A model generated the notes under the pieces. The model was not told where the DNA came from. It did not search any database and worked only from the letters and a program-made list of their open reading frames with translations. From Pararhodobacter zhoushanensis (GTDB lineage Bacteria; Pseudomonadota; Alphaproteobacteria; Rhodobacterales; Rhodobacteraceae), in assembly GCF_025949695.1 (NCBI RefSeq), contig NZ_JAPDFL010000001.1, positions 2,607,501-2,671,500 on the forward strand: a DNA stretch of 64,000 bases, in the 5' to 3' direction. Shown piece by piece: positions 8,021 to 61,611 of the stretch (position 1 is its first letter; each line of letters starts with the position of its first letter). The translations under genes and the position numbers were made by a program.

Positions 8021-8027
8021 GGGCGCA

Positions 8028-8135
8028 CTCACCCGGGGGGTCTCGACAAGAGGCTGAGATACTGATCGTGCCGCAAGGCGCAGCGCAGTGACCCGATGAA
8101 CCTGATCCAGTTCATACTGGCGTAGGGATGGTGCA
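8028..8135 (+). promoter_or_regulatory. TPP riboswitch (THI element) upstream of thiC
   Basis: The two conserved parts of the thi box are present: 'GAGGCTGAGAT' at about 8050-8060, which binds the pyrimidine end of thiamine pyrophosphate, and ACCCGATGAACCTGATCC then 'ACTGGCGTAGGGA' at about 8091-8129, which holds the pyrophosphate end. It lies 108 bases upstream of the thiC start. Control is probably by hiding the thiC ribosome-binding site or by termination; no clear expression-platform terminator was seen between 8136 and 8235, so translational control is more likely. Confidence 0.95.
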
Positions 8136-8240
8136 CCGGCTGCGCGGCTCTTGCCGATACGTCACAGGCGTATTCCGTTCAGCCTTTCTCCATTCGACGC
8201 GGAACTGGGTCTCCAACGCTTTGAGCACTGGAGGCTCTGA

Positions 8241-19294: not shown

Positions 19295-19369
19295 TGGCTG
19301 GGGCGGTAGGATTCGAACCTACGGTACACGGTACCAAAAACCGATGCCTTACCACTTGGCCACGCCCCA
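19295..19369 (-). tRNA. tRNA-Gln (anticodon TTG), CCA encoded
   Basis: The minus strand folds as a 75-base cloverleaf: acceptor stem TGGGGCG/CGCCCCA, D-arm GCC-AAGTGGTAA-GGC, anticodon loop TTTTGGT with TTG at positions 34-36, T-arm GTAGG-TTCGAAT-CCTAC, discriminator G and a genomic CCA. The anticodon stem has a T-T mismatch at the 27:43 pair; all other stem pairs are good. Confidence 0.97.
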
Positions 19370-47968: not shown

Positions 47969-50269
47969 ATGAGCCCGTCTGACAGCCCTGTTGGCGTGAC
48001 TGCGCCCGCGGCAGAGCATGTCTTGCCGCGCCGCAGTCTGTTTCAGCGGCGGCTTCAGGCTGGCGGTACGCTTGTTCTGGTTGTGCTGGCACCCGTGCTC
48101 GTCGTGGCGACGACTCTGGTGCTGGGTCCGTTCTCCTTCGTGCAGAACCTGCCGTCGCTGCGTCTCGTGCTGGTTGCGGACCTGTTCTACATTCTGGTCG
48201 TGGCGGGACTGGTGCTGTTGCGCATCAGCTGGATGATCGGCGCGCGGCGTTCGCGGTCTGCAGGGTCACGGTTGCACCTGCGCTTGTCCGCCTTTTTTGC
48301 GCTGATTGCGTTGCTGCCAGCCATCACCGTCGCAGTCTTTGCCGTGGTGACGATCAATCTGGGGCTCGAGGGCTGGTTTTCCGACCGGGTGCGCAATGTG
48401 GTCGGCAACTCGCTGGCCGCCGCCGAGGCCTATCAGGCCGAGCAGGAGCGCAACCTGACCGAAGACGCGCAGGCCGTTGCAAACCTGCTCGAAAGCGCCC
48501 GCCGCGCCAGCCCTGCGCTGTCCGAAGGCGATACGCGCCAGTTGCTCAGTCAGGCGCAGGCCGCCATTCAGCGCGGGCTGCGCGTGGCGTTCATCATCGA
48601 TTTTCAGGGCACGCTCCGGCTGCGCGGCGAGCGATCGTATCTCTTTGATTTCATTCAACCCGATCGCGCGGACCTGGCGCAGGCCGCCGGGGGGCAGCTG
48701 ACGCTGATCAAGGACTGGCCCAACAGCGAATTCCGCGCGCTGGTGCCGCTGACGGGGTATCCGAACCGGTTGCTCTATGTCGCGCGGGCGGTGGATGGTG
48801 AAATCCTCAGCCTGCTGGACGAAACCCAGCAGACCATCCAGCTTTACAACCAGCTCGAGGCCGAGCGCGGCACGGTGCTGTTCAATTTCGCGCTGCTCTA
48901 TATCGGCTTTGCGCTGATCCTGATTCTGGCCGCTGTCTGGCTGGGGATGTGGTTCGCCGAAGGGCTGTCGCGGCCCATCGGGCGGCTGGCGGGGGCAGCC
49001 GAGAGAGTCGGGGACGGCGATCTGGACGTGCAGGTGCCCGAACAGCGCGGCGAAGATGAGATCGCCACCATGGGCCGGGTGTTCAACCAGATGATCCGCC
49101 AGCTGAAGGGGCAGCGCGAAACGCTGCTGACCAACACCCGCCAGATCGAAGAGCGCCGCCGGTTGTTTGATTCCGTGCTGGGCTCGGTCACCGCCGGGGT
49201 GATCGGCCTGACCGCCGACGGGCGCGTTGATTTCGTCAACCGTGCCGCCGAGACGCTGACCAAGATTTCCGCTGACGGCGTCGCGCATCAGTCGCTGGTC
49301 GAGGTCGTGCCCGAGTTCGGCCCGCTGCTCTCACGGCTGCAAGGCGGCGAGGGGCGCATGGTCGGCGGGCGGGTACAGGACGAGGTCCGCATCAGCCGCA
49401 ACGGACGGCTGGAAAGCCTGCTGGTCCGGCTGGCGGAACGGCGCAACGCCAGCGGCGAGCTTGAGGGCTATGTGGTTGCCTTTGACGATGTGACCGAGCT
49501 GGTCTCGGCCCAGCGGATGGCTGCATGGGGCGACGTCGCGCGCCGCATCGCGCATGAGATCAAGAACCCGCTGACGCCGATCCAGCTGTCGGCCGAGCGC
49601 ATCAAGCGCAAATTCGGCAAGATGTTGCAAGACGAGGATGCGGCATCGCTTGGCCAGCTGAGTGACGTTATTGTCCGTCAAACCAATGACTTGCGGCGTA
49701 TTGTTGATGAATTCTCGCGCTTTGCGCGTATGCCGGAACCGGACCGCCGTCCGACCGATCTGGTGCAACTGCTGCGCGATGCGACGATGTTGCAAGAGGC
49801 CGGGCAGGAAAGTGTGGCGTTCGAGGTCCAACTGCCGACCGAGCCGCTGATCGTCGAAATTGACCCCACGATGATCACGCAGGCGATGACCAATTTGCTC
49901 AAGAACGCGGGCGAAGCCATTGAAGGGCTTATCGAAGCCGGTCGCGCTCCTGATGGCTTTCAACCTCAGATCCGCGTGTCGATGGCGGTCAGCCCCGAGC
50001 GCGCGACCATCGAGATTGCCGACAATGGTGTGGGCTTGCCGGAAGACCGCGCGCGGTTGTTTGAACCCTACGTGACGACGCGCGAGCGGGGCACCGGGCT
50101 GGGCCTGCCGATCGTCAAGAAGATCATCGAAGAACACGGCGGTACACTGGTGCTGCGCGATGCACCCGCCATGGCGGGCTGCACGCACAGCGGTGCGCTG
50201 GCTGAAATCCGGTTGCCGGTCTTGCGCTCTGCGCGCGGCGGCCATGCTGACACAGGAGCCGAAACATGA
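47969..50269 (+). CDS. ntrY: Membrane sensor kinase NtrY
   Basis: A 766-residue kinase. Three to four transmembrane segments (about residues 32-60, 70-90, 105-128, 305-325) frame a periplasmic sensor part, followed by HAMP, PAS (about 400-500), the phosphoacceptor His529 in '[20 protein letters not shown]', and an ATP-binding domain with 'NLLKNAGEAIEG' and 'GTGLGLPIVKKI'. NtrY acts with NtrX in redox and nitrogen control in alphaproteobacteria. 83 bases separate it from ntrC; it overlaps ntrX by 4 bases. Confidence 0.95.
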   Translation: MSPSDSPVGVTAPAAEHVLPRRSLFQRRLQAGGTLVLVVLAPVLVVATTLVLGPFSFVQNLPSLRLVLVADLFYILVVAGLVLLRISWMIGARRSRSAGSRLHLRLSAFFALIALLPAITVAVFAVVTINLGLEGWFSDRVRNVVGNSLAAAEAYQAEQERNLTEDAQAVANLLESARRASPALSEGDTRQLLSQAQAAIQRGLRVAFIIDFQGTLRLRGERSYLFDFIQPDRADLAQAAGGQLTLIKDWPNSEFRALVPLTGYPNRLLYVARAVDGEILSLLDETQQTIQLYNQLEAERGTVLFNFALLYIGFALILILAAVWLGMWFAEGLSRPIGRLAGAAERVGDGDLDVQVPEQRGEDEIATMGRVFNQMIRQLKGQRETLLTNTRQIEERRRLFDSVLGSVTAGVIGLTADGRVDFVNRAAETLTKISADGVAHQSLVEVVPEFGPLLSRLQGGEGRMVGGRVQDEVRISRNGRLESLLVRLAERRNASGELEGYVVAFDDVTELVSAQRMAAWGDVARRIAHEIKNPLTPIQLSAERIKRKFGKMLQDEDAASLGQLSDVIVRQTNDLRRIVDEFSRFARMPEPDRRPTDLVQLLRDATMLQEAGQESVAFEVQLPTEPLIVEIDPTMITQAMTNLLKNAGEAIEGLIEAGRAPDGFQPQIRVSMAVSPERATIEIADNGVGLPEDRARLFEPYVTTRERGTGLGLPIVKKIIEEHGGTLVLRDAPAMAGCTHSGALAEIRLPVLRSARGGHADTGAET

Positions 50270-51657
50270 GCGACATCCTTATCGTGGACGACGAACGCGA
50301 TATTCGCGAGCTGGTTGCCGAGATCCTGCGTGACGAAGGGTATTCGACCCGCGTCGCCGCCAATTCCGATGATGCGATGGCAGCGGTGGTCAGTGACCCG
50401 CCGATGCTGATGATCCTCGACCTGTGGTTGCGGGATTCCAAGCTGGACGGCATCGGTATTCTGATGTCGGTCAAGCGCGAGTATCCGTCAATTCCGGTGG
50501 TCATCATCTCAGGTCACGGCAACATCGAGATCGCGGTCGAGGCGATCAAGAAGGGGGCCTATGACTTTGTCGAAAAGCCCTTCAACACCGATCAGCTGCT
50601 GGTGGTGATCGGCCGCGCGATGGAAACCTCGCGGCTGCGGCGCGAAAACACCAAACTGCGCAAGCGCGACACCGGCCCGACCGAGATGATCGGACAGTCG
50701 GCGGCGATGAAGTTCCTGCGCGCGCAACTGGGCAAGGTCACGCGGTCGAACGGGCGGGTGATGCTGACCGGGCCGTCGGGCAGCGGCAAAGAGGTCGCGG
50801 CGCGGTATATCCACGCGCAATCCAACCGCGCCGATGCGCCTTTCGTCACGGTCTCTTGTGCGTCGATCGAGCCGGACAAGATGGAAACGGTGCTCTTTGG
50901 TCAGGAAAGCGGCGCGCGGGGGATCATTCCGGGTCTGCTGGAACAGGCAAATGGCGGGGTGCTGTACCTTGACGAGGTGGCCGATATGCCCCTTGGCACG
51001 CAGTCCAAAATCCTGCGTGTGCTGGTCGAGCAGACCTTCACCCGCGTCGATGGTGCAGACCGGGTGCGCGTCGATCTGCGGGTGATCTCGTCGACCACGC
51101 GCGACCTGCGCGCCGAGATTGCGGCGGGGACGTTCCGTCAGGAGCTGTATGACCGGCTCAATGTCGTGCCGATCCAGGTTCCCGCGCTGACCGACCGGCG
51201 CGAGGATATCCCGGTGCTGGCCCGCCATTTCGTCGAGCTGTTGCACCAGACGCAAGGCCTGCCCAAGCGCGAGCTGTCCGAGGACGCCGAGACTCAGCTG
51301 CAATCGATGAACTGGCCCGGCAACATCCGCCAGCTGCGCAACGTCATTGAGCGGGCGCTGATTCTGGGGGACGGGCAAGAGGCGATTGAAGCGCGCGATC
51401 TGATCGCGGAATCCGCCGATCCCGAGGAAGAAGGTCGTGTCGTGCTGGGCGGCGGTCTGGCGGCCTTGCCGCTGCGCGAGGCGCGCGAGTTGTTCGAGCG
51501 CGAATATCTTTTGACGCAAATCAACCGCTTCGGCGGCAACATCTCGCGTACCGCTGCGTTTGTCGGTATGGAACGCTCTGCGTTGCATCGTAAACTGAAA
51601 TCGCTGGGGGTGAACACCGCAGCGCTTTCAGGCGGACGCGGCGGGCGCGACGACTGA
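50266..51657 (+). CDS. ntrX: Response regulator NtrX
   Basis: A 463-residue regulator. Receiver with Asp52 ('MLMILDLWLRDS'), AAA+ domain with Walker A GPSGSGKE (169-176; the last residue is Glu instead of the usual Ser/Thr), and a C-terminal Fis-type helix-turn-helix ('FGGNISRTAAFVGMERSALH'). The GAFTGA motif is replaced by 'GQESGARGIIPGLL', so sigma-54 activation is unlikely. Partner of NtrY. Confidence 0.95.
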   Translation: MSDILIVDDERDIRELVAEILRDEGYSTRVAANSDDAMAAVVSDPPMLMILDLWLRDSKLDGIGILMSVKREYPSIPVVIISGHGNIEIAVEAIKKGAYDFVEKPFNTDQLLVVIGRAMETSRLRRENTKLRKRDTGPTEMIGQSAAMKFLRAQLGKVTRSNGRVMLTGPSGSGKEVAARYIHAQSNRADAPFVTVSCASIEPDKMETVLFGQESGARGIIPGLLEQANGGVLYLDEVADMPLGTQSKILRVLVEQTFTRVDGADRVRVDLRVISSTTRDLRAEIAAGTFRQELYDRLNVVPIQVPALTDRREDIPVLARHFVELLHQTQGLPKRELSEDAETQLQSMNWPGNIRQLRNVIERALILGDGQEAIEARDLIAESADPEEEGRVVLGGGLAALPLREARELFEREYLLTQINRFGGNISRTAAFVGMERSALHRKLKSLGVNTAALSGGRGGRDD

Positions 51658-54718: not shown

Positions 54719-54952
54719 ATGGCCGTAGACAAACAGAATTTGCAGGACGCTTTTCTCAACCATGTTCGCAAGAACAAGGTTCCAGTAACGATTTTCCTGA
54801 TCAACGGGGTCAAGCTGTTGGGCGTGATCACGTGGTTTGACAACTTCTGCGTGCTTCTGCGCCGTGAAGGGCAGAGCCAACTGGTCTATAAACATGCCAT
54901 TTCGACCATCATGCCGGGCCAACCGATTTCCCTGTATAACGGTGAGGATTGA
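54719..54952 (+). CDS. hfq: RNA chaperone Hfq
   Basis: A 77-residue Sm-like protein. Sm1 motif '[19 protein letters not shown]' and Sm2 motif '[10 protein letters not shown]' are complete; the N-terminal '[14 protein letters not shown]' carries the residues that bind U-rich 3' ends. It lacks a long C-terminal tail, as usual in alphaproteobacteria. It forms a hexamer that helps small RNAs pair with mRNAs. 21 bases upstream of hflX. Confidence 0.98.
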
Positions 54953-56310: not shown

Positions 56311-57432
56311 TCACTCGTCTTCATCGTCATCCTCGCGCAGGGTGATTTCCCCGTCTTCGACCAGCGTTCGCACAGCATTGACCACCGCAGACAACGCCGC
56401 CTCTGCCTCTTTCGGTTTGATCTTGCCGCGGTTTTCAACCTCATCGCGCAGGGTCGAGGCCATACGTTGCGACATGTTTGACAGCATGAACGTCGCCGCC
56501 TGACCATTCGGACTGTCGGGCGCCGCCAGTGAGGCGGCCAGCGCGATGATAAGGTCGTTTTGCGGCAGTTCGCGCAGCACTTTGGGCACATCGCGGGGAT
56601 TGAGCCGCTCGGACAGATTGGCAAAGGTGAAGATTGCCCGTCTGACACCCTCGGCGAAATCCACGTCTTCCTCGGTCAACCCGTCCAGCAAGGTGTCGCG
56701 GACCTGTGCGCTGGTGTTGTTCAGCATTGCCCCAACGCGCGAGGCCGGCGCCGCCGGGAAGGCGCGGGTGGGGCGGTTGTCCAACTCTCCGGCGATGGCA
56801 TAGCCGATGCGGGCGACCATGGGCGGGGCGATCCCTTCGGTCAGGGACACGGCATAGGCCACCCGCCGCGCCCGTTCGCCGGGCAGCCTGCCCAGCACTT
56901 CGGCCGCGCGCTTGACCGGCAGTTTGGACAGCACGACCGCCGCCACCTCGGCGCTTTCGGGCTCCAGGACGGCGATCAGCGTGTTGGTATCGGCCTGCAA
57001 CACCCGCTCCCACGGGTCCGTCCCATCGCGGGCCATCTGGCGCAGGCGCGCGCTGGCGCCTTGGCTCAGCTTGCCATCCAGCGCCTTGAGCGCGCCGCCC
57101 AGCCCGCCCGGAAAACTGAGTCCGACCTGCTCGATCGTTTCGATGAACTCACTGATCACGGCGCTGAGCGTATCGCGGTCGACCAGACGCATTTCGCCCA
57201 GCGTTTCGGTCAGCTTGGTTTGCATCTCTTCAGGCAGGGTCGAGAGTTTGACATCCGCACCCTCAGCCAGCAGCAACCGCACCAGGATGGCGGCCTTTTG
57301 CTTGCCAGTCAGCGCCCGGATGCTGCGCCCCGTGGGCGCGGTGCCCCGCGCTGCACGCATGGCGGGCACATCATCATCAAGCGCGGCTGCGGCAAGCGCG
57401 AGGGGCGAGAGGGCGGGCAAGTCCATGGGCAT
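56311..57432 (-). CDS. fliG: Flagellar motor switch protein FliG
   Basis: A 373-residue rotor protein. It has the FliG-N ('KQKAAILVRLLLAEGADV'), FliG-M ('AEVAAVVLSKLPVKRAAEVL') and FliG-C ('NLSERLNPRDVPKVLRELPQ') domains. The usual 'FEDI' of FliG-C appears as 'FTFANL', a diverged form. Two ATGs, at 57432 and 57426, are possible. No other flagellar gene is in the window. It is convergent with hflX (8 bases). As the lone flagellar gene it may be transcribed alone; function as a true rotor part is inferred from the domains. Confidence 0.85.
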   Translation of the reverse strand: MPMDLPALSPLALAAAALDDDVPAMRAARGTAPTGRSIRALTGKQKAAILVRLLLAEGADVKLSTLPEEMQTKLTETLGEMRLVDRDTLSAVISEFIETIEQVGLSFPGGLGGALKALDGKLSQGASARLRQMARDGTDPWERVLQADTNTLIAVLEPESAEVAAVVLSKLPVKRAAEVLGRLPGERARRVAYAVSLTEGIAPPMVARIGYAIAGELDNRPTRAFPAAPASRVGAMLNNTSAQVRDTLLDGLTEEDVDFAEGVRRAIFTFANLSERLNPRDVPKVLRELPQNDLIIALAASLAAPDSPNGQAATFMLSNMSQRMASTLRDEVENRGKIKPKEAEAALSAVVNAVRTLVEDGEITLREDDDEDE

Positions 57433-57522: not shown

Positions 57523-57536
57523 TTGATCCAGATCAA
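57523..57536 (+). promoter_or_regulatory. FNR/FnrL box of a predicted small RNA
   Basis: TTGATCCAGATCAA matches the FNR consensus TTGATNNNNATCAA at every fixed position. Its centre (57529.5) is 31 bases upstream of the centre of the -10 candidate TTTAAA (57558-57563), as expected for class II activation at -41.5 of a start near 57571. The minus-strand fliG could in theory also use it, but no -10 at the right distance was found in that direction. Confidence 0.75.
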
Positions 57537-57570
57537 GGATCGCTGCACCTGCAAGGGTTTAAACAGCAGG

Positions 57571-57676
57571 CGAAGGGCTGGCCCCGGGCCTGACCTTCAT
57601 CTCCCGTTTCCTGGGCGCACCTCCCTGTACCCGGAACACTAATCGCCGCGAGACCTCCCTCTCGCGGCGTTCTTTT
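57571..57676 (+). ncRNA. Predicted FNR-activated small RNA with CUCCC motifs (about 105 nt)
   Basis: In the spacer between the two minus-strand genes fliG and ispG, the plus strand has a full transcription unit: FNR box at 57523-57536, -10 TTTAAA at 57558-57563, and a strong terminator at 57644-57676. No convincing open frame with a ribosome-binding site lies between. The RNA contains ATCTCCC, ACCTCCC and again ACCTCCC, the last in the terminator loop. Such C/U-rich loops pair with Shine-Dalgarno sequences in the alphaproteobacterial anti-SD RNAs. hfq lies 3 kb away. Start and function are predictions only. Confidence 0.6.
57644..57676 (+). terminator. Intrinsic terminator, plus strand
   Basis: CGCCGCGAGA (57644-57653) pairs perfectly with TCTCGCGGCG (57660-57669); the loop is CCTCCC and the tail is TTCTTTT. 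It cannot serve the minus-strand ispG, since no U-run exists in that direction. So it must end a plus-strand RNA. Confidence 0.9.
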
Positions 57677-57686
57677 ATGCGATCAC

Positions 57687-58811
57687 TTATTCCGCGGCTT
57701 CCTTTGCCGCCGCCTCAAGCTGGGCTGCGCGGGCTTCGACCAGTTCGACGATATGCTCGATCATGCGGTCGTTGGACAGTTTGTGGTCCTGTTTGCCCGC
57801 CATATAGATCATGCCGGACCCGGCACCGCCGCCCGTGAACCCGATGTCGGTCATCAGCGCCTCACCGGGGCCGTTCACCACGCAGCCGATGATCGACAGG
57901 CTCATCGGTGTCTTGATGTGAGACAGCCGGTCTTCCAGCGCCTCGACCGTCTTGATCACGTCAAAACCCTGCCGCGCGCAGCTGGGGCACGAGATGATTT
58001 GCACACCGCGCGTGCGCAGACCCAGCGATTTGAGGATCTCGTAGCCGACCTTGACCTCTTCGACCGGGTCCGCCGAGAGCGAGACGCGGATCGTGTCACC
58101 GATCCCGGCCCAGAGCAGGTTGCCCATACCCACAGCCGATTTCACCGCGCCTGAAACGAAACCGCCCGCTTCGGTGATGCCCAGATGGATCGGTGCATCC
58201 GTTGCGTCGGCCAGCTGCTGATAGGCAGCGGCAGCAAGGAACACATCCGAGGCCTTCACGCTGATCTTGAATTCGTGAAAATCGTTATCCTGCAACAGCT
58301 TGATGTGGTCCATGCCACTTTCGACCATGGCGTCGGGGCAGGGCTCGCCGTATTTGTCGAGCAGGTGCTTTTCCAGCGACCCGGCGTTTACGCCGATGCG
58401 GATGGAACAGCCGTGATCGCGCGCCGCCTTGATCACCTCCCGCACCCGCTCGGACGAGCCGATGTTGCCGGGGTTGATCCGCAGACAGGCGGCACCGGCC
58501 TGCGCGGCTTCGATGGCGCGTTTATAGTGGAAGTGGATGTCCGCAACGATCGGCACCGGGCTTTCGCGGGTGATTTCACGCAGGGCACGGGTGCTGGATT
58601 CGTCGGGGGTGGAGACGCGCACGATGTCGGCGCCAGCTTCGGCGGCAGCGATGATCTGCGCCAGCGTCGCCTTGACGTCCGAGCTGTCGGTGTTGGTCAT
58701 CGTCTGCACCGAGATCGGCGAGTCGCCCCCCACGGGGACGTTGCCCACCATGATCTTGCGCGACACGCGCCGTTCGATGTTGCGCCAGGGACGGATCGGG
58801 TTCAGCGACAT
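57687..58811 (-). CDS. ispG: (E)-4-hydroxy-3-methylbut-2-enyl-diphosphate synthase IspG (GcpE)
   Basis: A 374-residue iron-sulfur enzyme turning MEcPP into HMBPP, the last but one step of the MEP pathway. TIM barrel with '[12 protein letters not shown]' and 'RINPGNIG', then the [4Fe-4S] ligands Cys275, Cys278 and Cys310 ('SCPSC' and '[11 protein letters not shown]'). Length and residues are normal. It lies 104 bases after rodZ, in the same direction. Confidence 0.97.
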
Positions 58812-60278: not shown

Positions 60279-61508
60279 TTACGCCGACAACTCAGCGCGA
60301 TTCAGCGCACAGTGCGACCAGAGCCGATCCATCGCCTTCACAAGCGCGTCAATTTCCTTGGGATCGTGCACCGGCGACGGGGTGAAGCGCAAACGCTCGG
60401 TCCCGCGGGGCACGGTTGGGAAGTTGATGGGCTGAACGTAGACGCCGAAATCTTCCAGCAGCATGTCCGACAGCATCTTGCAGTGCACCGGGTTGCCGAC
60501 ATGGACGGGGACGATGTGGCTGCCGTGATCGATGATCGGCAGACCCATGCCCTTGAGCCGGTTTTTCAGGATGCGGGCGTGCAGTTGCTGTGCGTCGCGC
60601 AGATGCTGGCCTTCTGCGGTCTTGAGCAGGGCAATCGACGCCGCGCAACCGGCCGCAATCGCGGGCGGCAGCGAGGTGGTGAAGATGAAGCCCGGCGCAT
60701 AAGAGCGTACAGCGTCTACCATTTTTGCCGATGCAGCGATGTAGCCGCCCATCACGCCAAAGGCTTTCGCCATCGTGCCGTTGATGATGTCGATCCGGTG
60801 CATCAGCCCGTCACGCTCGGCCACGCCGCCACCGCGGGGGCCGTACATGCCGACGGCGTGAACCTCATCAAGATAGGTCAGCGCGTTGAACTCGTCCGCC
60901 AGATCGCAGATCGCTTCGATCGGACCAAAGTCGCCATCCATCGAATAGATCGACTCGAAGGCGATCAGCTTGGGGGCCTTGGGATCGTCGGCTTCCAGCA
61001 GGGCGCGCAGATGCGCGGTGTCGTTGTGACGGAAGATGCGCTTTTCCCCGCCGTTGCGACGCACGCCTTCGATCATCGACGCATGGTTGAGCGCATCGGA
61101 ATAGATGATCAGGCCGGGGAAGAGCTTGTGCAGGGTGCTCAGCGTCGCGTCATTGGCGATATAGGCCGAGGTGAAGACCAGCGCTGCCTCTTTCTGGTGC
61201 AGGTCGGAAATCTCGGCCTCAAGGCGGTTGTGGTACACCGTGGTGCCCGAGATATTGCGCGTGCCGCCCGACCCGGCGCCGGTCGCATCAATTGCCTCAT
61301 GCATCGCTTCCAGCACGACAGGGTGTTGACCCATGCCCAGATAATCGTTGCCGCACCAGACGGTTATGTCCTTCTCCGTGCCATCGCGCTTCGTCCACAC
61401 GGCGTGCGGAAAATGACCCTTTTTGCGCTCGATATCGATAAAGGTCCGGTAACGGCCTTCATCATGAAGACGTTGAAGGGCGGAATCGAGGGCTGCGTCG
61501 TAGGTCAA
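60279..61508 (-). CDS. hemA: 5-aminolevulinate synthase HemA (C4 pathway)
   Basis: A 409-residue PLP enzyme that condenses glycine and succinyl-CoA, the first step of heme and bacteriochlorophyll synthesis in alphaproteobacteria. PLP lysine is Lys248 ('[12 protein letters not shown]'), the same number as in Rhodobacter ALAS; '[20 protein letters not shown]' and '[16 protein letters not shown]' are typical. The start codon is TTG (61506-61508), 7 bases behind AGGAG, and matches the position of M1 in known HemA. An FNR-like box lies 90 bases upstream. Confidence 0.97.
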
Positions 61509-61597: not shown

Positions 61598-61611
61598 ATG
61601 ACCTGGATCAA
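61598..61611 (-). promoter_or_regulatory. FNR-like box upstream of hemA
   Basis: On the minus strand TTGATCCAGGTCAT matches the FNR consensus in 8 of 10 fixed positions, 90 bases before the hemA start. Rhodobacter hemA genes are known FnrL targets, which strengthens the call. No confident -10 was identified. Confidence 0.55.

Follow-up and report, generated by a model that had tools for sequence, protein, structure and literature searches.

A Predicted FNR-Activated Small RNA of Pararhodobacter with a Conserved Seed of Probable Anti-Shine–Dalgarno Function and ctaD as Candidate Target

Introduction

In Pararhodobacter zhoushanensis, the spacer between the minus-strand genes fliG and ispG holds a perfect FNR box, a TTTAAA hexamer at the distance expected for class II activation and a 10-bp terminator. 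An earlier note on this DNA had picked out all three, and all three are present at 57523–57676 on the plus strand of the 64-kb stretch analyzed here (the window). Do these elements delimit an RNA and, if so, what would that RNA act on? We consider it highly probable, judging from sequence and conservation, that the RNA is real and has an FNR-dependent promoter. The reading that we favor, with moderate confidence, is a trans-acting small RNA that is activated by FNR at low oxygen and whose seed blocks Shine–Dalgarno sites, ctaD being the likeliest conserved target.

Results

An FNR Box and a Terminator Frame a Predicted RNA

The features of the locus are collected in Table 1. The FNR box is the sole perfect one across the window, and boxes with at most one mismatch number five against 0.92 expected, a count reached in none of 100 shuffles. 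A further box of the form TTGA[TC]N4[AG]TCAA, TTGACGCAAATCAA at 51511–51524 (+), lies inside the ORF 50266–51657, which we take to be ntrX, and is probably a chance occurrence. The center of the box and the −10 element together place the putative start of the RNA near 57571; with the start so placed, the box stands near −41.5, as expected of the promoters of FNR-activated small RNAs. A scan for sigma-70-type promoters, which requires a −35 element, found none at the locus; class II FNR promoters can do without a −35.

Table 1. Features of the fliG–ispG spacer and neighboring genes (window coordinates)
Feature	Position	Strand	Basis or remark
hfq, possible RNA chaperone gene	54719..54952	+	about 2.6 kb from the RNA
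fliG, neighbor gene	56311..57432	−	Pfam
FNR/FnrL box TTGATCCAGATCAA	57523..57536	+	center 57529.5, about −41.5 from the predicted start
−10 element TTTAAA	57558..57563	+	position conserved in relatives, letters not
Predicted small RNA, noncoding, about 105 nt	57571..57676	+	fold, covariance model, conservation
5′ hairpin GAAGGG...CCUUC	57572..57598	+	fold; compensatory changes in 3 of 4 modeled helix 1 pairs
Seed AUCUCCCGUUUCC with CUCCC motif 1 (57601–57605)	57599..57611	+	CUCCCGUU universal in the genus
Second hairpin, CUCCC motif 2 (57621–57625) in loop	57606..57639	+	5 of 8 pairs with compensatory change
Intrinsic terminator: 10-pair stem, CUCCC motif 3 (57655–57659) in loop, T-run	57644..57676	+	5 of 10 pairs compensatory
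ispG (GcpE), convergent neighbor	57687..58811	−	Pfam

The RNA 57571–57676 folds at −44.8 kcal/mol (z = −4.1), a value equaled by none of 200 shuffles, and contains no ATG, GTG or TTG up to the end of the terminator. The CUCCC motifs at 57601, 57621 and 57655, in the contexts AUCUCCCGUU, CCUCCCUG and CCUCCCUC, have mean unpaired probabilities of 0.99, 1.00 and 1.00. The two halves of the seed differ in the predicted fold: AUCUCCC is unpaired, whereas GUUUCC is mostly paired in hairpin 2 (unpaired probability 0.07–0.36). At the 3′ end, the inverted repeat 57644–57669 of 10 pairs is followed by TTCTTTT. Three terminator-like sites were counted in 2 kb around the locus against 1.4 expected; the stem 57644–57669 is listed on both strands, with the tail TTCTTTTATG on the plus and ATTAGTGTTC on the minus strand, and the remaining site, at 57586–57571 (−), is a stem of 5 pairs.

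At gathering score, Rfam found two families in the window, neither of them at the RNA locus. Among the Rfam matches elsewhere in the 64 kb are a TPP riboswitch at 8024–8146 (+; 65.5 bits) and a tRNA gene at 19298–19369 (−). The best weak match to the RNA was anti-hemB (23 bits against a cut-off of 49.5), followed by sX13 (18.7), suhB/mmgR (16.4) and ar7 (15 bits), with MIR7510 and snoU82P also appearing; the subthreshold plus-strand matches were mostly bacterial small RNAs, several of them RNAs with C-rich loops. FnrS, for which Rfam includes a model, was not among the weak matches.

The earlier note had also drawn attention to hfq and to hemA with an FNR-like box. Both are nearby, hemA by our own presumption: in the ORF 60279–61508 (−), which we take to be that gene, Pfam detects an aminotransferase only, and the FNR-like box beside it (61598–61611) has 8 of the 10 letters. 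These neighbors say little about the RNA.

The Predicted RNA Is Conserved across the Genus

A blastn search found the RNA in 11 of the 18 Pararhodobacter genomes. The covariance model R1, itself built from 11 of the 15 genus loci, finds it in 15 of 18, including all 12 genomes of good quality; the three without a match (G006, G016 and G017) are 85, 89 and 70% complete. In the closest genome, P. zhoushanensis ZQ420, which is 94% identical to the window over 8 kb, box and RNA are the same. A core-pattern scan of named genomes gave nine matches, three in Pararhodobacter, one in Rhodobacter sp., two in "Rhodobacteraceae bacterium" and three (L021–L023) judged to be chance.

The pattern TTGA[TC]N4[AG]TCAA is present at all 15 genus RNA loci and starts 44–50 nt upstream of the R1 model start. 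Among 11 aligned loci, the mean pairwise identity is highest in the seed block (94%), the box (89%) and the terminator (86%), and falls to 41% in the −10 region and 39% in the spacer. The DNA from box to start thus drifts between conserved ends, and the terminator is kept together with its T-run. The −10 element keeps its position, with variable letters, and looks poor by eye in 3 of the 11 loci. The conservation that the earlier note had asked of box, −10 element and terminator therefore holds for the first and the last, and for the −10 element in position alone.

Structure is conserved as well. In an alignment of 15 sequences that had been fitted to R1, compensatory changes are seen at 13 of the 22 base pairs, a number that none of 500 shuffles reaches, and 95% of the cells pair, against 32–47% for slid structures. 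RNAalifold, run anew on the same alignment, predicted 20 pairs, 12 of them with double changes. Fold and phylogenetic distribution support the proposal of a plus-strand RNA of about 105 nt between two minus-strand genes, and the covariance search that had been suggested as its check turned out in its favor.

The three CUCCC motifs fared differently. They exist in this strain, one of them in the terminator loop as had been noted, but three copies are not a conserved design: CUCCCGUU, which contains the first, occurs at 15 of 15 genus loci, whereas the second is found at 7 and the third at 5, so that four loci have three motifs, four have two and seven have one. Since the first motif is universal and the others are sporadic, the working part would be a single seed, to which some species add spare copies, rather than three loops.

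Candidate Targets of the Seed

A seed of this kind would pair with G-rich Shine–Dalgarno sequences, GG(A)AACGGGAG, before start codons and block ribosome binding; its 5′ half would be free to do so, and its 3′ half would need opening from hairpin 2. In the strain's own genome, the complement of the seed, AACGGGAG, stands 3–11 nt before an ATG 17 times and the reversed pattern 4 times; in six genomes the numbers are 141 and 30, the backwards pattern being the only control. As AACGGGAG is a good Shine–Dalgarno sequence, such an excess is expected anyway, and ribosome binding could explain why close relatives conserve it.

The proteins encoded downstream were clustered; the set had 130 entries with a minimum length of 35 aa, two of them duplicate rows for ctaD. 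Orthologous groups that keep AACGGGAG are acyl-CoA synthetase (6 of 6 genomes), ctaD (5 of 6), a LigA-like protein (5 of 6) and FlgB (4 of 6). Three further groups keep it in 5 of 6 genomes; these we take to be FixH-like, metallo-hydrolase-like and DUF2147-like. NCBIfam backs CtaD, LigA, FlgB and acyl-CoA synthetase, on partial sequences and below the whole-protein cut-offs, and gave no match for the 60-aa starts of the three further groups.

The ctaD gene, whose product is subunit I of the aa3 cytochrome oxidase, a low-affinity enzyme, stands out as the likeliest conserved target; further candidates are aromatic-degradation genes such as LigA and an acyl-CoA synthetase. In 14 of 17 genus copies of ctaD the leader sequence is GGAACGGGAG, and the DNA upstream of it is variable. 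The three that deviate are the copies of the strain studied here (GGATACGGGAG) and of G016 (GGAACTGGAG) and the second one of G014; a further genus ctaD match with an unreadable start (L178) is outside the 17. In G006 and G017, two incomplete genomes where the RNA was not found, the leader retains GGAACGGGAG. Scored as ungapped helices between the CUCCC regions and the ctaD Shine–Dalgarno sequence, 8 of 10 genus genomes reach 10.3 (shuffle p 0.000–0.005), and the remaining two reach 7.0 (the strain studied here) and 8.0 (G003). In this strain, pairing extends over 7 bp and then meets a mismatch (shuffle p 0.072); the leaders of 44 mechanically called ORFs in the window give a maximum of 7.3, and 7 is reached by 4 of the 44. 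Whole-RNA duplex energies were tried as a target measure and dropped as uninformative.

The conserved seed and a coherent candidate target lend support to the anti-Shine–Dalgarno reading of the earlier note, and that the RNA acts by Shine–Dalgarno pairing appears probable. We regard ctaD as a plausible direct target in the genus, on balance; for the strain studied here the same claim is doubtful, if still a real possibility.

Similar RNAs in Other Rhodobacteraceae

In 295 genomes of the family, blastn gave five matches, two within the genus and three in other genera; the latter, of 24–36 nt, were judged to be chance, and one is barely more than the FNR box. With R1, 394 family genomes gave 86 matches at E ≤ 0.01, which is not a prevalence, since 15 of the 28 loci read (L044–L071) resemble plain terminators; in 11 others CUCCC repeats lie close to an FNR box, and in 2 such repeats occur with no box.

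An FNR box followed by two CTCCC occurs in 15 of 295 genomes, against 1 for the backwards control and 16 for the GGGAG counterpart; the count alone shows no excess over the latter, a poor control that takes in the Shine–Dalgarno sites of mRNAs. By eye, 10 of the 15 are multihairpin RNAs. Weaker family matches and pattern matches taken together, 14 genomes outside the genus have an FNR box with two to six CUCCC in the 260 nt after it.

Seven RNAs from other genera, alike among themselves and built differently from the Pararhodobacter RNA, served to make a second covariance model, R2. At E ≤ 1e-4 it has matches in 16 of the 394 genomes of the family, nine of them below 1e-19; seven of these nine had built the model, and the new ones are G033 and G355. 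The 10 best matches all have an FNR box 45–46 nt upstream, and flanking DNA ties many of the R2-type loci together, near a CoxE-like VWA gene and an XdhC gene. In the window's genome R2 has no match at E ≤ 1e-4. The R2-type alignment (A3) has double changes in only 2 of 24 pairs and an unfavorable covariation term (+0.61); two of the RNAs folded singly have z of about −5.9. Rfam returned no family at cut-off among the 19 loci scanned. For the longest ORFs beside the RNAs of other genera, Pfam was empty in 20 of 30 cases, as antisense ORFs were often chosen, and the remaining neighbors are mixed (CoxE-like VWA, XdhC, AbrB, OmpA, YkuD and an endonuclease family).

Two loci without an FNR box in the stretch read are recorded here for their hairpins. 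In G223, of another genus, a DUF1127 gene is followed by three CUCCC hairpins (L045/L223), which looks like a CcsR-like locus. In G366 (L222) there are several CUCCC hairpins, and the DNA on either side resembles that around the FNR-box RNAs of G337 and G379.

ctaD Leaders in Genomes with the R2-Type RNA

Genomes with an R2-type RNA and a readable ctaD have two or more GGGAG within 75 nt in 8 of 8 cases against 3 of 45 others (Fisher 1.9e-7), and an FNR box within 400 nt of ctaD in 0 of 8 against 20 of 45 (p 0.019); as the CtaD tree unites seven of the eight with G040 in a single group (support 89/82) and sets G041 apart, these are one or two events, so that the first value overstates the case and the second is equally weak. 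The 45 comparison genomes include some with FNR-box CUCCC RNAs of other builds (G315, G337, G121 and G146), and a partial match (L350) and a second copy in G026 (L351) were left out of the GGGAG count. In Pararhodobacter, 0 of 16 ctaD genes have two GGGAG and 11 of 16 have an FNR box. The pattern of two GGGAG and no box was predicted beforehand for G033 and G355; G033 fits, and G355 has no ctaD match.

Seed helices in the genomes with R2-type RNA score from 6.3 to 10 (shuffle p 0.001–0.31), those of G222, G041 and G029 not being significant at 0.05. The Pararhodobacter RNAs pair with the ctaD leaders of these genomes nearly as well (9.46 against 9.88), so that on the Pararhodobacter side there is no clean lineage-specific matching. 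At the cut-offs used, a ctaD match is absent from G268, G355, G379 and G341 (the last 70% complete), all of which have FNR-box CUCCC RNAs; ctaD cannot therefore be the sole target. The ctaD leaders L185 of G027 (GGAAACGGGAG) and L182 of G057 (GGGAACGGGAG) are near-perfect complements of the Pararhodobacter seed; neither genome has an R1 or R2 match at cut-off.

We offer as a tentative extension, which we hold to be rather unlikely as a whole, that the Rhodobacteraceae have a widespread class of FNR-activated anti-Shine–Dalgarno RNAs with ctaD as a recurrent target, and that in one clade the RNA replaced the FNR operator of ctaD. In that clade, the two GGGAG of the ctaD leader, one upstream and one in the Shine–Dalgarno sequence, would face the CUCCC loops of the RNA.

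Discussion

Our favored model runs as follows. At low oxygen, an FNR-type regulator would bind the box and activate a class II promoter, as box, spacing and conservation suggest; the terminator, to which sequence, structure and covariation point, would end the RNA; and the seed would then occupy Shine–Dalgarno sites, above all that of ctaD.

The nearest known kind is the anti-Shine–Dalgarno RNAs of the cuckoo or alpha-r14 group (CcsR1–4 of Rhodobacter sphaeroides and NfeR1 of Sinorhizobium meliloti), which are not described as FNR-driven. They are likewise alphaproteobacterial and carry C-rich anti-Shine–Dalgarno motifs in unpaired hairpin regions. NfeR1 pairs with ntrB at its translation start and so silences it (PMC10746234), and CcsR shares a transcript with a DUF1127 gene, made from an RpoHI/HII promoter (PMC10253847). 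The cuckoo RNAs are further described as having CCUCCUCCC, whereas the RNA studied here has the seed CUCCCGUU, an FNR-type promoter of its own and ispG as a neighbor. A derivation from this family, followed by capture under FNR control, is unlikely in our view, and it survives better than the other alternatives. It would account for the same working part, CUCCC in loops that include the terminator loop, and for weak Rfam matches that are mostly bacterial small RNAs; the G223 locus, with a DUF1127 gene before its CUCCC hairpins, has the arrangement described for CcsR. Against it, CCUCCUCCC is absent from the window RNA, a DUF1127 (CcaF1) gene was not found beside it, the neighbors being ispG and fliG, and both promoter type and seed are unlike those of cuckoo RNAs. 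At least two anti-Shine–Dalgarno hairpins are the mark of a cuckoo RNA; this strain has three CUCCC, and 7 of 15 genus loci have one only.

Other alternatives concern what the RNA or the box is for. The transcript might act by sponging up another RNA, or as a protein-binding decoy: its C-rich loops could titrate a G-rich partner RNA, and hfq is close by. We think this very unlikely, since conservation is higher in the seed letters than in the loops of hairpin 2 and the terminator and a decoy would leave the extended match to ctaD leaders unexplained. Slightly less likely still is that the box serves fliG, or both directions, and that the plus-strand RNA is incidental. The box is palindromic and stands 91 nt upstream of the fliG start, and of the 12 relatives' loci whose sequence continues for over 1 kb on that side, 11 have fliG there; L036 and L037 stop short of it. 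In the exception, L011 of G008, other genes are in the place of fliG, which has no match in 1.4 kb of flank, yet box, RNA and terminator are kept, so that the box is not conserved for fliG alone; the distance of box and RNA, kept within 44–50 nt, and the covarying helices speak against the idea as well. Least likely of all is action in cis, as a read-through RNA antisense to the end of ispG or as a bidirectional terminator: ispG adjoins in all 14 relatives' loci searched, its stop codon is 11 nt from the RNA 3′ end and the stem is symmetrical and on both strands' lists, but the longer T-run is that of the plus strand and is kept so in aligned relatives, the most conserved block is the seed rather than the ispG-proximal part, and RNAs of similar design occupy other loci in other genera.

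The favored model, a trans-acting RNA on Shine–Dalgarno sites, has parallels in oxygen control. FnrS of Escherichia coli is an FNR-activated small RNA that represses functions dispensable without oxygen (PMC8139620); the outline of action is alike, and bacterial class and seed differ. PcrZ of R. sphaeroides is a small RNA induced at low oxygen whose expression depends on PrrA and FnrL (PMC8139620, PMC8307010). It shares family and condition with the RNA studied here and differs, by its description, in its PrrA site, its perhaps indirect FnrL control and its photosynthesis targets. Work on FnrL in R. sphaeroides reports that FnrL binds the aa3 oxidase genes and apparently represses them, and that for six FnrL-bound regions no oxygen-regulated transcript was known; small RNAs are what the authors mention in this connection (PMC2908626). 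A later ChIP-seq study lists 13 FnrL sites outside annotated promoters, two of them at small RNAs (PMC4263372). That setting, with the small RNAs RSs0019 and RSs2461, is similar to ours by its description, and RSs0019 (Pos19) is described as a 219-nt coding RNA of the RpoE regulon. In Dinoroseobacter shibae, too, FnrL mediates repression of the aa3 oxidase (PMC5398030). In the open-licence PMC literature searched, we found no description in Rhodobacteraceae of an FNR-driven anti-Shine–Dalgarno RNA or of a small RNA acting on ctaD.

The RNA between fliG and ispG is a concrete, conserved candidate for the small RNAs suggested at unassigned FnrL ChIP sites. If it acts on ctaD, it would bring in control at the level of translation, on top of the transcriptional repression that FnrL is known to exert on the aa3 oxidase in relatives, and it offers a hypothesis for how facultative bacteria may shut off translation of the aerobic oxidase. 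Should the replacement in the R2-type clade be true, oxygen control of ctaD would there have passed from operator DNA to a small RNA.
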